This document shows, in pieces, positions 32,741-39,368 of a DNA stretch of 40,818 bases. Positions within the stretch are counted from its first letter, which is position 1. Each line of letters starts with the position of its first letter. A program made the translations under genes and the position numbers. The stretch comes from Caulobacteraceae bacterium (GTDB taxonomy: Bacteria > Pseudomonadota > Alphaproteobacteria > Caulobacterales > Caulobacteraceae). Location of the stretch: the NCBI GenBank assembly GCA_947474775.1, contig CANJKG010000002.1, forward strand, positions 1 through 40,818, given 5' to 3'. Under the pieces are notes generated by a model. It did not search any database. It was not told the DNA's origin and saw only the letters and a list, made by a program, of their open reading frames with translations.

Positions 32741-33778
32741 ATGAAACACCTGATGAGCTGCGCAGCCGCCGTCGCGCTGCTGATGCCCGCCACCGCCGCC
32801 CACGCCGCCCGCGACTTCGTCTGGGCCGCCGGCTCCTCCACCGTCTTCCCCTTCTCCACCCGCGTGGCGGAGCAGTACGCCCGCAAGAACAGCGCCAAGC
32901 CGCCCAAGGTCGAGAGCCTCGGGACCGGCGGCGGCATCAAGCTGTTCTGCGGCGGCGCCGGCGACAACTTCCCCGACATCGCCAACGCCTCGCGCCCGAT
33001 GAAGAAGGCTGAGTTCGACCAGTGCGCCGCCAATGGCGTGAAGGACATCGTCCAGATCAAGATCGGCTTCGACGGCATCGTGGTGGCCTCCGACAAGGAT
33101 GGCCCGAACTACGCCTTCAAGATCGAGCACCTGTACCTTGGCCTGGCGGCCAATGTGCTGCGCCAGGGCAAATTCATCGCCAACCCCTACAAGACCTGGG
33201 ACGAAGTCGGCTCGGGCCTGCCGGGCAACAACATCCTGGTCTATGGCCCGCCGCCCACCTCCGGCACCCGCGACGCCTTCGTCGAGCTGGGCATCGAGGC
33301 CGGCGCGCGGAAATATCCGATCGCGGAGGAACTGCGGTCCAACAACGAAGCGAAGTTCAAGCAGATCGTCGATCCGCTGCGCAAGGACGGCTGGGTCGAC
33401 GCCGGCGAGAACGACAACGCCATCGTCCAGACCCTGACCAAGACCCCCGGCTCGCTGGGCGTCTTCGGCTATTCCTTCCTTGAGGAGAACGGCGACAAGG
33501 TGAAGGGCATGCCCGTGAACGGTGTCATGCCGACCCCGGGGACCATCGCCGACGGCTCCTACCCGCTGGCCCGCTCGCTCTACATCTATGTGAAGAAGTC
33601 GCGGATCGCGACCACCAAGGGCCTGCAGGAGTTCGTCAACGAGTTCGTCTCCGACGCCGCCACGGGCCGGGGCGGCTATCTGCCGCAACGGGGCCTGATC
33701 GCCCTGCCGCCCGGCCAGCACGCCGCCCAGAAGGCGGTGGCCGAGAAGCTGCCGTCCATGGCTCGCCCGGCCTCCTGA
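32741..33778 (+). CDS. pstS: PstS-family phosphate ABC transporter substrate-binding protein
   Basis: Signal peptide; FVWAAGSSTVFPFSTRVAEQYARKN, VESLGTGGGIKLFCGG, PPTSGTRDAFVELG, SLYIYVKKS. Confidence 0.9.
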   Translation: MKHLMSCAAAVALLMPATAAHAARDFVWAAGSSTVFPFSTRVAEQYARKNSAKPPKVESLGTGGGIKLFCGGAGDNFPDIANASRPMKKAEFDQCAANGVKDIVQIKIGFDGIVVASDKDGPNYAFKIEHLYLGLAANVLRQGKFIANPYKTWDEVGSGLPGNNILVYGPPPTSGTRDAFVELGIEAGARKYPIAEELRSNNEAKFKQIVDPLRKDGWVDAGENDNAIVQTLTKTPGSLGVFGYSFLEENGDKVKGMPVNGVMPTPGTIADGSYPLARSLYIYVKKSRIATTKGLQEFVNEFVSDAATGRGGYLPQRGLIALPPGQHAAQKAVAEKLPSMARPAS

Positions 33779-33804
33779 GTTTTACGACCCCCACCAAGAC
33801 CACT

Positions 33805-33840
33805 GCGCCGCGGCCCTCCGGCCGCGGCGCCTTTCTTTTG
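33805..33840 (+). terminator. Rho-independent terminator after pstS
   Basis: GCGCCGCGGCC-CTCC-GGCCGCGGCGC (11-bp perfect stem) followed by CTTTCTTTTG. Confidence 0.85.
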
Positions 33841-33935
33841 GCCGCGCCCGCTCGTGACATCGAGCCGGATAGCGCTTAAGTTATGCATATACTGTAATTA
33901 CTGGAAATATCGTATTATAGCCATTGGAGGTCGCG

Positions 33936-34658
33936 GTGGACTTGCCATCGCTGAACGCGGACTTCGCGGACTACCCCACGCTCGGGAAGCTCTCGCCGGT
34001 GGGCGGCTTCCCCCATCCGCCGCGCATCCTGCTGCTGTACGGCTCCCTGCGCACGGTCTCCTACAGCCGGCTTCTGATCCTGGAGGCCCAGCGCCTGCTC
34101 GACAGGATGGGCGCCGAGACCCGGGTTTTCGACCCCACGGGACTGCCGCTTCCCGATGGCGCGGCCGCCGATCACCCCAAGGTCCAGGAGCTTCGCGACC
34201 TCATGGCCTGGTCGGAAGGCCAGGTATGGTGCAGCCCGGAGCGCCACGGCGCAATCTCGGGCGTCATGAAGTCCCAGATCGACTGGGTGCCCCTGGCCCT
34301 GGGGAGCATCCGGCCCACCCAGGGAAAGACCCTGGCGGTCATGCAGGTGTCCGGCGGCTCGCAGTCGTTCAACGCCGTGAACACGCTCCGGCTGCTCGGA
34401 CGCTGGATGCGGATGTTCACCATCCCAAACCAGTCGTCGGTGGCCAAGGCGTTCCAGGAGTTCGACGCCGACGGGCGCATGAGGCCATCCGACTACTACG
34501 AACGGGTGGTCGACGTGATGGAGGAGCTGTTCAAGTTCACCCTCCTGCTGCGCGACCGGAAGGACTACCTGGTCGACCGCTACAGCGAGCGCAAGGCGGA
34601 GGGCCGGCCGACCCTCGCGGCCTCCCTGGCCGACTCCGCCATGGCGCACGAGCGGTAA
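33936..34658 (+). CDS. arsH: Arsenical resistance NADPH-dependent flavoprotein ArsH
   Basis: [48 protein letters not shown]...[24 protein letters not shown] 33936 preceded by GGAGG. Confidence 0.93.
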
Positions 34659-34672
34659 CGACGGGTTGTCAT

Positions 34673-35074
34673 ATGGCGGTCGCTATGAGCGAGCATTCTG
34701 GCATCATGGAAATGGATTCTGCGGTACGCACGCTCGGCGCCCTCGCCCATGGCGGCCGGCTGGAGATATTCAGGCTGCTGATCGTGGCCGGGCCCGAGGG
34801 CATGGCGGCCGGGGACATCGCCAAGGCGGTGGGCTGTTACCCCAACACCCTGTCATCGAACGTCGCCATCCTGCACCGCGCGGGCCTGGTGAGCGCCCAA
34901 CGCGACGGCCGCTCCATCCGCTACGCTGCGGCCTACGACCAGATGGCGGCCCTGCTGGGCTACCTCGTGCAGGACTGCTGCAACGGCGCCGCGGAGATCT
35001 GTGGGCCCTTGGCCCAGGCGGTGGCCAGCGTCGCCTGCTGCGACACCCTCAACACCCAGGAGACGCCGGCATGA
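34673..35074 (+). CDS. arsR: ArsR/SmtB family repressor with C-terminal cysteine clusters
   Basis: ALAHGGRLEIFRLLI...LSSNVAILHRAGLVSAQRDGRSIRYAA; QDCCNGAAEIC and VACCDT. Confidence 0.9.
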   Translation: MAVAMSEHSGIMEMDSAVRTLGALAHGGRLEIFRLLIVAGPEGMAAGDIAKAVGCYPNTLSSNVAILHRAGLVSAQRDGRSIRYAAAYDQMAALLGYLVQDCCNGAAEICGPLAQAVASVACCDTLNTQETPA

Positions 35075-35598
35075 ACCGTCCGTACAACGTCCTCTTCGTT
35101 TGCACTGGGAACTCCGCCCGCTCGATCCTGGCGGAATCCATCCTGAACCGGGTCGGAGCGGGGAAGTTCGTCGCCTGGTCGGCCGGCTCCATGCCCGCGG
35201 GGCAAGTCAATCCTCTCGCCCTCGCCCTGCTGCGGAAGCTGAATTATCGGGTCGATCACCTCCGTTCCAAGCCCTGGGACGAATTCTCGCGGACCTCCAA
35301 TCCCGAGGCCCCGGAGTTGGATTTCGTGTTCACCGTCTGCGACAACGCCGCCGGCGAGGTCTGCCCCATCTGGCCGGGCCAGCCGATGAGCGCCCACTGG
35401 GGTCTGCCCGACCCGGCCGCGGTGAAGGGCACGGAGGCCGAGCAGGCGCTGGCCTTCGGCGACGCCTACCGGATGCTCTACAACCGCATCGAGATCCTGG
35501 TGAACCTGCCGGTGAGCTCGCTGGACCGCCTGACGCTGCAGAAGCGCCTGGACGAGATCGGCAAGGCCACCGGCAAGCCCGAGCCTGCAGGCCGGTGA
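35071..35598 (+). CDS. arsC: Arsenate reductase, low-molecular-weight phosphatase type
   Basis: VLFVCTGNSARSILAESILNRVG P-loop; DFVFTVCDNAAGEVCPIWPGQP; ATG overlaps arsR stop. Confidence 0.93.
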   Translation: MNRPYNVLFVCTGNSARSILAESILNRVGAGKFVAWSAGSMPAGQVNPLALALLRKLNYRVDHLRSKPWDEFSRTSNPEAPELDFVFTVCDNAAGEVCPIWPGQPMSAHWGLPDPAAVKGTEAEQALAFGDAYRMLYNRIEILVNLPVSSLDRLTLQKRLDEIGKATGKPEPAGR

Positions 35599-36269
35599 GC
35601 GACGCAGGCCTGGAGCCGCCGCTCTCGGACTTCGACCCGATCCGTCGCCTGACCGCCGAGACCCTGGGCACGGCCCTGCTGCTCGCCGTGGTGGTCGGCT
35701 CCGGGATCATGGGCGAGCGGCTGTCCGGCGGCAACGACGCCATCGCCCTGATGGCCAACGCCTTGGCAACCGGCGCCGGCCTGGTCGTGCTGATCACCGT
35801 GTTTGGCCCGATCTCCGGGGCCCACTTCAATCCGGCGGTCAGCCTGGTGTTCGCGCTGCGGCGGGAGATCTCCTGGCCGCTCGCCGCAGCCTACTCGGCT
35901 GTGCAGACCATCGGCGGCGTGATCGGCGTGTGGACAACCCACCTGATATTCTCCGAACCGGTGTTCCAGGTCTCGACGAAGATGCGCGAAGGCCCCGCCC
36001 TGGTGTTCTCCGAGGGCGTGGCGACCATCCTGGGGACGCTGCGCTTCCGTCCGCAGTTCACCCCGGTGGCGGTGGGCCTCTACATCACCAGCGCCTACTG
36101 GTTCACGGCCTCCACCTCGTTCGCCAACCCGGCCGTCACCATCGCCCGCAGCCTCTCCGACACCTTCGCGGGCATCGCCCCGTCCTGCGCGCCGATGTTC
36201 ATCGCCGCCCAGTTCGCGGGGGCATTGTTGGCGGTCGTGGTCTTCCGCTGGCTACTGAAGGCGCGCTGA
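35595..36269 (+). CDS. aqpS: Aquaglyceroporin of the arsenic operon (AqpS-like MIP channel)
   Basis: GTG 35595 overlapping the arsC stop; MIP motifs HFNPAVS and SFANPAVTIARSLSDTF. Confidence 0.87.
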   Translation: MSDAGLEPPLSDFDPIRRLTAETLGTALLLAVVVGSGIMGERLSGGNDAIALMANALATGAGLVVLITVFGPISGAHFNPAVSLVFALRREISWPLAAAYSAVQTIGGVIGVWTTHLIFSEPVFQVSTKMREGPALVFSEGVATILGTLRFRPQFTPVAVGLYITSAYWFTASTSFANPAVTIARSLSDTFAGIAPSCAPMFIAAQFAGALLAVVVFRWLLKAR

Positions 36270-36299: not shown

Positions 36300-37712
36300 C
36301 TAAGCCGCGCTCGGGCTGCGCCGCAGCACCCGCGCCAGGCGTCGCAGGCGCCGCCAGAAGCGCGTTTTCTCCGGCTCGGGATAGGGCTGCAGGTTGCGCA
36401 CGAAGTCCTCGGCGCAGGCGCGCCAGGAGAACTTCTCCGCGAAGGCCCGCACCGCCCTGCGGTCCAGGTTCAGCGCCTCCAGGCAGGCCTCGCGCAGGCC
36501 CTCGGTGGCGCTGCCGGCCAGCACGCCCGCGCCGGAGCCCGGGATGATGTCGATGGGGCCGGGCGCCGGATAGGCGGCCACCGGCGTGCCCGCGGCCATG
36601 GCCTCCAGGATCACCAGGCCGAAGGTGTCGGTGAGCGAGGGGAAGACGAAGACATCGGCGCAGGCGTAGGCCGCCGACAGCTCGGCGCCCAATTTGGGGC
36701 CCGTGAAGACGGCGTTGGGATACCGCTCCTCAAGCTCCTCCTTCTGGGGGCCTGGCCCCACGATGACCTTGGTGCCCGGCAGGTCGATGGCCAGGAACGC
36801 CTCGATGTTCTTCTCCACCGCCACCCGGCCCACATAGAGGAAGATGGGCTTCGGCAGGTCAGCGAAGACATCGGGCTCGGATTCCATCCGTGGACGGAAG
36901 ATATCGGTGTCCACGCCCCGCGACCAGGCGGAGATGTTGCGGAACCCGTGCTCCTGCAGCTCGTCGCGCATGGTGGGGGTGGCCACCATCAGGCGCCCCG
37001 AGGGCTTGTGGAACCACTTCATATAGGCGTAGCCGGCGGCCAGCGGCAAAGGCAGCCGGGCCGAAACGTACTCCGGGAAACGGGTATGGTAGCTGGTGGT
37101 GAACGGCAGCTTCCATTCCACGCAGATGCGCCTGGCCGCCAGGCCGATAGGGCCTTCGGTGGCGATGTGGATGGCCTCCGGCTCGAAGGCCTTGAAGCAC
37201 TCCTGCACCGGCTCGTAGACCCCGATCGCCACCTTGATCTCCGGATAGGTGGGCAGCGGGAAGGTCTTGAACTGGTCGGGGCTGATCACCTCCACCAGAT
37301 GGCCCATGCCCTTAAGCTCGGCGACCACCCGGGTGAGCGTGCGCACCACCCCGTTGACCTGCGGCTCCCAGGCGTCTGTGGCCAGCAGGATTCGCATCGG
37401 CCGGCGGGTGTCGCGCGGGGCGATGATCGCCTCGCGCAGGCGGGTGGAGGAGCGCGGCGGGCGCGGCTTGATGTCCGGCGACACCACCTGACTCTGCAGC
37501 CAGGCCCAGAAGGCCCCGAGCAGCGCCTCCTTGGTGGGGAAGTGGCGATAGACGGTGCGTTCGCCGACCCCCACGTCCTTGGCCACCTCGCCGAAATTGA
37601 GGTCCTCGAGGGCGCCGCTCTCCAGCTGGCGGCCCACCGCGCGCAGGATCTGCTCGCGGGTCTCCTCCCGTTGCCGGTCGCGAAGGCCGGGCGTGTGGCT
37701 CGGGGATTTCAT
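36300..37712 (-). CDS. Fusion of TetR-type HTH (aa ~10-75) with a GT4 glycosyltransferase (aa ~106-470)
   Basis: REQILRAVGRQLESGALEDLNFGEVAKDVGVGERTVYRHFPTKEALLGAFWAWL then MRILLATDAWEPQVNGVVRTLTRVVAELK...YVGRVAVEKNIEAFLAIDLPGTKVIVGPGPQ...FVFPSLTDTFGLVILEAMAAGTPVAA; one frame, no stop. Alternative internal ATG at 37397 for the GT alone. Confidence 0.85.
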   Translation of the reverse strand: MKSPSHTPGLRDRQREETREQILRAVGRQLESGALEDLNFGEVAKDVGVGERTVYRHFPTKEALLGAFWAWLQSQVVSPDIKPRPPRSSTRLREAIIAPRDTRRPMRILLATDAWEPQVNGVVRTLTRVVAELKGMGHLVEVISPDQFKTFPLPTYPEIKVAIGVYEPVQECFKAFEPEAIHIATEGPIGLAARRICVEWKLPFTTSYHTRFPEYVSARLPLPLAAGYAYMKWFHKPSGRLMVATPTMRDELQEHGFRNISAWSRGVDTDIFRPRMESEPDVFADLPKPIFLYVGRVAVEKNIEAFLAIDLPGTKVIVGPGPQKEELEERYPNAVFTGPKLGAELSAAYACADVFVFPSLTDTFGLVILEAMAAGTPVAAYPAPGPIDIIPGSGAGVLAGSATEGLREACLEALNLDRRAVRAFAEKFSWRACAEDFVRNLQPYPEPEKTRFWRRLRRLARVLRRSPSAA

Positions 37713-37728
37713 GACAGGGGCACTGTCA
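37712..37728. promoter_or_regulatory. Operator-like palindrome at the start codon of the TetR-GT gene
   Basis: TGACAG-GGGCA-CTGTCA, perfect 6-bp arms; further TGTCA at 37744-37748. Confidence 0.55.
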
Positions 37729-37761
37729 CGGGTTCGGCGGGAGTGTCAATGCGCGGCGGGC

Positions 37762-38580
37762 TCAGGCGGCGAGCGGCTCGGGGTCGGCAAGGCTTTCGCG
37801 GGCCGGGGCGCGGTCGATCACCGACCAGGACCGCAGGCGGGCCCATTCGAGGATCTCAAGCCGTCCGCAGGGATGCTCCACGAGCGCGGTGCAGCTCTCA
37901 ACCCAGTCGCCGTCGTTGACGTAGAGGATGTCGCCGATCTGGCGTATCTCGGCCTTGTGGATGTGGCCGCAGATCACCCCGTCCACGCCGCGGCGCCGGG
38001 CCTCGTCGGCCACCGCGTGCTCGAAGTTTTCGATGAACTGCAGGGCGTTCTTGACCCGCGTCTTCAGGAAGGCCGAGAGGCTCCAGTAGCCGAAGCCCAG
38101 CCGCCGGCGGACCCGGTTCATCAGGGTGTTGGCGGACAGCAGGGCCCGGTAGGCGACGTCGCCCAGGAGCGCCAGCCAGCGGGCATGTTGCACCACCCCG
38201 TCGAACTCGTCGCCATGGGTCACCAGGAAGCGCCGACCGTCCGCCGTCTCGTGGACGGCGTCGCGCGCCACCACCACCCCGCCGAAATGGACGCCACAGA
38301 AATCGCGCACCCGTCCATCGTGATTTCCCGGGATATAGGTCACCGACACGCCCTTGCGGGCCAGGCGCAGGATCTTCTGGACCACGTCGTTGTGCGCCTG
38401 AGGCCAGAACCAGCCGCTCTTCATCTTCCAGCCGTCGACGATGTCGCCCACCAGGTACAGCGACTCGCAGTCGATCTCGCGGATGAAGTCCAAGAGCAGC
38501 TCGGCCTGGCATCCCCGCGTGCCCAGGTGCACGTCGGAGATGAACACGCTGCGGAAGCGTCGCGGTCCCGTATCGCCCAC
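37762..38580 (-). CDS. PlcP/LpxH-like calcineurin-family metallophosphatase (UDP-2,3-diacylglucosamine diphosphatase-like; possible phospholipase C PlcP)
   Basis: VFISDVHLGTRGCQAELLLDFI, LVGDIVDGWKMKSGWFWPQAHNDVVQKILR, IPGNHDGRVRDF, VTHGDEFD, GVICGHIHKAEIR, NDGDWVESCTALVEH. GTG 38580 chosen as start. Confidence 0.87.
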   Translation of the reverse strand: MGDTGPRRFRSVFISDVHLGTRGCQAELLLDFIREIDCESLYLVGDIVDGWKMKSGWFWPQAHNDVVQKILRLARKGVSVTYIPGNHDGRVRDFCGVHFGGVVVARDAVHETADGRRFLVTHGDEFDGVVQHARWLALLGDVAYRALLSANTLMNRVRRRLGFGYWSLSAFLKTRVKNALQFIENFEHAVADEARRRGVDGVICGHIHKAEIRQIGDILYVNDGDWVESCTALVEHPCGRLEILEWARLRSWSVIDRAPARESLADPEPLAA

Positions 38581-38723: not shown

Positions 38724-39368
38724 TTGATTTCCATGGACGCCCACGCCCACCCGGCCAAGGCGACGCCCAAGTCGCTGCGTACCCGCGCCCGCATCCTGGA
38801 CGCCGCCATGCGGCTGTTTGCCGAGGTGGGCTACCACGCCGCCACCAACGGGCTGATCTCGGACCATGCAAAGCTCACCCGCGGGGCGATGCTCTACCAT
38901 TTCGCCACCCGCGAGGAGCTGGTGAGGGCGGCCGTCGAGCACATCGAGCGCGCCCGCGCGCGCCTTTTCGAGCAAGCGGCCGCCAAGCCGCCGGCGCCGG
39001 GCGTGGACGCCGCCGAACACGCCATCGACGCCTACTGGCTGCTGCTGCACGAGCCGCCCTTCGTGGCCTTCGCCGAGCTGGAGGCGGCGGCGCGCACCGA
39101 TCCGATGCTGCGCGGGCAGTTGGCGGCGGCCCAGAGCGCCTTCGACCACGCCCAGGTGGGCGGCCGCTTCGGCGCCCTGGCGAAGGCCGGAGACGATCCC
39201 CGCTTCCAGGCTAGCCGCGACTTGGGCCGCTTCCTGCTGGAGGGCCTGGCCAAGGGCGCCATGACCTATGACGAGCAGCGCCGCCGCGAGCGCCTGCTGG
39301 CGGTGGTCAAGCGGGCGGTCCGCATGCTCAATCGCAAGGGCGACGTCCACGACCTGTGGGACGACTGA
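38724..39368 (+). CDS. TetR/AcrR family transcriptional regulator
   Basis: RTRARILDAAMRLFAEVGYHAATNGLISDHAKLTRGAMLYHFATREELVRAAV; full-length 214 aa. Start at 38724 or ATG 38733. Confidence 0.87.
   Translation: MISMDAHAHPAKATPKSLRTRARILDAAMRLFAEVGYHAATNGLISDHAKLTRGAMLYHFATREELVRAAVEHIERARARLFEQAAAKPPAPGVDAAEHAIDAYWLLLHEPPFVAFAELEAAARTDPMLRGQLAAAQSAFDHAQVGGRFGALAKAGDDPRFQASRDLGRFLLEGLAKGAMTYDEQRRRERLLAVVKRAVRMLNRKGDVHDLWDD

Follow-up and report, generated by a model that had tools for sequence, protein, structure and literature searches.

Trigger enzymes are few. PutA, BirA, NadR and PepA each carry an enzyme and a DNA-binding domain in one chain, the DNA-binding domain of PutA being a ribbon-helix-helix. 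Five trigger enzymes are listed for Escherichia coli, in which PutA is a repressor of its own operon that shuttles between DNA and the membrane (PMC8249747). Among lipid enzymes, plcP with a downstream glycosyltransferase gene is a known arrangement that serves lipid remodelling when phosphate is short (PMC4796936), and the sphingolipid glycosyltransferases Sgt1 and Sgt2 of Caulobacter crescentus are induced by phosphate starvation (PMC6445935). We analysed a stretch of 40,818 nucleotides from a Caulobacteraceae genome, referred to below as the window, which contains a gene that invites comparison with these systems. Like the four named trigger enzymes, its product would join an enzyme and a DNA-binding domain in one chain, but where PutA has a ribbon-helix-helix and proline chemistry, this protein has a TetR_N domain and a GT4 glycosyltransferase. 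As in the PlcP-Agt operons of Alphaproteobacteria, to which the locus is likened by arrangement, a GT4 gene directly follows a metallophosphoesterase gene; in contrast to those operons, Phenylobacterium has a DNA-binding domain and a putative operator of its own between the two, and the window shows no Pho box. Sgt1 and Sgt2, likened by class and host, are GT4 lipid glycosyltransferases from the same bacterial family, but no DNA-binding domain is reported for them. Our search of the open-licence literature turned up no TetR-glycosyltransferase fusion. The gene, its parts and its upstream neighbour are as follows.

36300..37712, minus strand: fused TetR_N-GT4 gene, 470 aa, with an ATG start and an open frame without a stop; full-length throughout Phenylobacterium
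36321..36377, minus strand: C-terminal basic amphipathic helix, residues 446-464, a possible membrane contact (hydrophobic moment, model, dN/dS)
36378..37400, minus strand: GT4 glycosyltransferase, residues 105-445 (PF13439, PF13692; fold matches)
37395..37397, minus strand: internal ATG (M106), the ancestral glycosyltransferase start (alignment of 70 sequences)
37401..37484, minus strand: disordered linker, residues 77-104 (pLDDT below 50 over 76-99; dN/dS 0.72)
37485..37685, minus strand: TetR_N helix-turn-helix, residues 10-76 (PF00440 match; four helices in the model)
37762..38571, minus strand: metallophosphoesterase gene, LpxH/PlcP-like, upstream of the fused gene (Pfam Metallophos; start approximate)

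The first-pass annotation had described a 470-aa frame joining TetR_N to a complete GT4 enzyme, and the open reading frame listing and Pfam bear this out, with no stop between the parts. The TetR_N match covers residues 28-67 (E 1e-7, above the gathering score of PF00440) and the recognition segment of the helix-turn-helix is E51-R52-T53-V-Y55-R56. The glycosyltransferase part matches Glyco_transf_4 at 119-270 and Glyco_trans_1_4 at 289-414. The structure model of the whole protein (mean pLDDT 74.5, pTM 0.67) has four helices at 10-76, disorder at 76-99 and a two-domain glycosyltransferase with the GT-B fold, whose nearest solved folds are the GT4 enzymes sucrose-phosphate synthase, GlgM, MshA, BshA, PimA and PimB. 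The domain borders given at first needed partial revision: the linker estimate of about 30 residues stands (about 28 in the window protein, with lengths differing among species in the alignment), and the helix-turn-helix was refined to about residues 10-76. The usual TetR C-terminal domain for ligand binding and dimerisation, already noted as missing, is absent by Pfam and in the model, where the helix-turn-helix is followed by the linker and then GT4.

In place of the GT4 catalytic E-x7-E motif the protein has D362-x7-E370, both residues being invariant. The C-terminal helix, helical in the model, has the highest hydrophobic moment of the protein and a net charge of about +8; it is also present in unfused glycosyltransferases. 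The glycosyltransferase part is probably of the membrane-lipid type, making sugar-bearing membrane lipids.

The fusion is present in all 39 Phenylobacterium genomes and all three genomes of its sister genus in a sample of the family Caulobacteraceae, and was not found elsewhere in that sample. Caulobacter, Brevundimonas and other relatives have the glycosyltransferase only, starting near residue 103 of the fused protein. The search for this architecture among relatives, suggested at the outset, returned a TetR_N-GT4 protein throughout sampled Phenylobacterium and its sister genus, and a bare enzyme in the other genera. A second Phenylobacterium set gave one contiguous match in 33 of 36 cases; in the remaining three, a contig end interrupts the match or a longer linker divides it. 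No further fusion was detected in 386 genomes across the class, and the helix-turn-helix alone was matched in only four genomes besides the window genome. A tree built from 110 glycosyltransferase domains needs one change to account for the fused state (support 90), a single origin that would lie on the stem leading to Phenylobacterium and its sister genus. The assembly of the window genome is a draft broken into 293 contigs, so an error of sequencing or assembly might be thought to have made the junction. This can be practically dismissed, because the frame is full-length and open, with the same junction, in dozens of independent genomes, single-contig assemblies included.

The helix-turn-helix is under purifying selection, with a median pairwise dN/dS of 0.28; the medians are 0.72 in the linker and 0.13 and 0.24 in the two halves of the glycosyltransferase. 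The C-terminal helix has a dN/dS of 0.10. Residues E51, R52, T53, Y55 and R56 are invariant in 70 aligned fused sequences. The conserved open frame under selection indicates that the product is one translated chain comprising an enzyme and a DNA-binding domain. It is very improbable that the gene instead yields two products, with the glycosyltransferase made mostly from the internal ATG and the TetR part left over as a leader. The internal codon is indeed retained as ATG in 68 of the 70 sequences, but Met-106 is a conserved residue in unfused glycosyltransferases too, where it is the start; Shine-Dalgarno-like sequences rarely precede it in fused genes, one sequence has CTG and another CTC instead, and the helix-turn-helix is under purifying selection. 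In the window, the internal ATG lies at 37397 as first reported, likewise with no Shine-Dalgarno sequence before it. The internal ATG was rejected as the main start for its missing ribosome-binding sites and the loss of the codon in some species. The option raised with it, a chance fusion with the glycosyltransferase using the internal start, is ruled out: the fused gene is conserved across the genus and arose once, its helix-turn-helix is under purifying selection, and some species have lost the internal ATG.

Two further elements lie at the start of the fused gene.

37712..37728, no strand: palindrome TGACAG-N5-CTGTCA, the presumed operator, sharing the A of the start codon
37744..37749, minus strand: TTGACA, 20 bp upstream of the palindrome half-site, which may be a -35 element or a further half-site upstream

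The region 37712-37748, proposed earlier as a target of the protein, thus has a candidate site at its edge. Among 72 distinct fused genes the palindrome is exact in 36 and has one mismatch in 24, two in eight and three in four. Positions G-15, C-13 and A-12 of the left half are invariant and further positions nearly so; the start had been picked by CTG[ACT]C before ATG, which only one of 87 loci lacked, so the invariance of the right half is partly built in, while the left half was not used. The copy in the window is the only exact one in the 2.97 Mb genome. Across 60 Phenylobacterium genomes we counted 38 exact copies, compared with three for a reversed control pattern: 26 at the fused gene, six before an L,D-transpeptidase gene and six elsewhere. 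The upstream TTGACA is conserved at -37 to -33 in fused genes. At the level of sequence, the gene has a predicted TetR-type palindromic operator by its own promoter. Because no Shine-Dalgarno sequence stands ahead of its ATG, the transcript may be leaderless, starting at or next to the ATG. A Pho box was rejected in favour of a TetR operator, as the half-sites are inverted and do not form 11-bp direct repeats; searched as a simple pattern, the Pho box core TGTCA-N6-TGTCA was not found in the window within one mismatch.

The closest relatives of the DNA-binding domain are stand-alone TetR proteins of about 199 aa from another family of the order (L135-L137, L145-L151), with 53-57 per cent identity to the fused helix-turn-helix and the same recognition segment. 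They resemble the fused gene in the type of helix-turn-helix and in a palindrome over the start, and differ from it in having the C-terminal ligand and dimerisation domain, in place of which the fused protein has a glycosyltransferase. They differ also in the number of sites: all seven stand-alone TetR genes encoding GLGERT[IV]YR have the palindrome twice, 20 bp apart, with the second copy over their own ATG, whereas the fused gene has a single palindrome. Its TTGACA stands 20 bp upstream of the palindrome, where the first tandem copy would begin, and so matches the period of the stand-alone genes. The palindrome is absent from four relatives that differ in the recognition segment, including a Phenylobacterium paralogue (L138), and from four further TetR relatives in other families of the class. 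This spacing and the palindromes common to the stand-alone TetRs suggest that promoter and operator travelled along with the helix-turn-helix domain. A different inverted repeat, about TGTCA-N6/7-TGACA, is found at related TetRs whose recognition helix differs (L138 2470-2650; L174-L176), and it too runs into the start codon. A 155-aa protein without a Pfam match follows one stand-alone TetR of the GERT type (L135 2824-3291), and a similar protein follows the TetR paralogue in L138.

The absence of the ligand and dimerisation domain could also mean that the helix-turn-helix no longer binds DNA and that a different TetR, a stand-alone one, reads the palindrome. We consider this improbable, as the recognition helix is invariant and under selection, sampled Phenylobacterium genomes contain no match to the stand-alone GERT-type TetR at E 1e-10 other than the fused protein, and the paralogue at L138 has a different helix and no such palindrome.

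We regard it as likely that the fused protein is a self-repressing glycosyltransferase of the trigger-enzyme type, acting as one chain and derived once from a plcP-glycosyltransferase operon. A flexible linker would tether the TetR helix-turn-helix to the membrane-lipid type GT4 enzyme, and the helix-turn-helix would bind TGACAG-N5-CTGTCA, covering the start of its own gene. Once enough enzyme was present, or enzyme was not engaged in catalysis, its transcription would be repressed. DNA binding, dimerisation, repression rather than activation, and any metabolic signal are what we infer from sequence here. The trigger-enzyme reading suggested at first is strengthened by the conserved operator-like palindrome at the start codon, common to stand-alone TetRs with the same helix. 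Against it stands the loss of the usual C-terminal TetR dimerisation domain, and coupling between the two domains may be loose, because the linker is unconserved. If correct, this would be a glycosyltransferase trigger enzyme and, equally, a TetR regulator with an enzyme as its sensor: the sensor domain of a repressor would have been exchanged once for a whole enzyme. The fusion and its predicted operator are kept together by the whole genus, and the unfused Caulobacter relatives offer a natural before-and-after comparison for how an enzyme becomes its own regulator.

Within self-repression, what the protein responds to can be read in several ways. It is quite conceivable, if somewhat short of an even chance, that repression of the gene simply tracks how much of the protein is present, without metabolic sensing; this agrees with the palindrome at the gene's own start, which has no other exact copy in the window genome, and with the disappearance of the TetR ligand domain, but the palindrome before the L,D-transpeptidase gene suggests a wider role in one subclade. 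A switch of the PutA kind is a more tentative possibility: acceptor lipid would draw the enzyme to the membrane through its C-terminal helix and leave the operator free, and without substrate the protein would return to DNA and repress. The strong conservation of this amphipathic helix, the operon context, which makes lipid glycosyltransferases the closest functional relatives, and the PutA precedent (PMC8249747) favour such a switch, yet the same helix occurs in unfused glycosyltransferases.

The second palindrome was found in one Phenylobacterium subclade, between a lysine-2,3-aminomutase-like gene and an L,D-transpeptidase gene (L218-L220, L222, L223, L225-L232, L234). Among the 11 closest orthologues, at 72.7 per cent identity or above, nine have the site within two mismatches, six of them exactly, and its surroundings are poorly conserved. 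This correlation in sequence suggests that the fused protein may act in trans at the L,D-transpeptidase gene in that subclade, which, if true, would link membrane glycolipid supply to cell-wall remodelling. That the lipid glycosyltransferase is a transcription factor reading its own state, free or membrane-engaged, and setting both its own gene and, in this subclade, the L,D-transpeptidase gene, is a speculative and rather unlikely extension.

The origin of the fused gene can be traced in its neighbourhood. The glycosyltransferase lies directly downstream of a PlcP-type metallophosphoesterase (identified as PlcP by fold and position) in the window and in most relatives. In 31 of 33 unfused relatives the two genes form a coupled pair, the metallophosphoesterase stop sharing one base with the glycosyltransferase start; the gap is 49 nt in the window and mostly 40-66 nt in fused genomes that keep this neighbour. 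In our favoured reading, self-repression by the fused enzyme, a tetR gene with its operator-promoter would have come between plcP and the glycosyltransferase gene, then lost its ligand-binding domain and been fused in frame to the enzyme. About 25 fused loci without plcP directly upstream nonetheless keep the palindrome. In 13 of 14 genomes checked with such loci, plcP is found elsewhere; regulation of the relocated plcP by the same palindrome was rejected, none being present within two mismatches in ten genomes.

A divergent full-length TetR gene lies beside plcP at 38724-39368 of the window, and in several genomes without plcP at this locus a gene similar to it is found upstream of the fused gene. 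On the other side, 32741-36269 of the window encodes, after a PstS-like phosphate-binding protein, proteins resembling ArsH, ArsR and ArsC as well as a MIP-family channel (MIP identified by Pfam, the other genes by eye); we take this to be an arsenic cluster that includes an aquaglyceroporin, of the arsR-aqpS-arsC-arsH kind.
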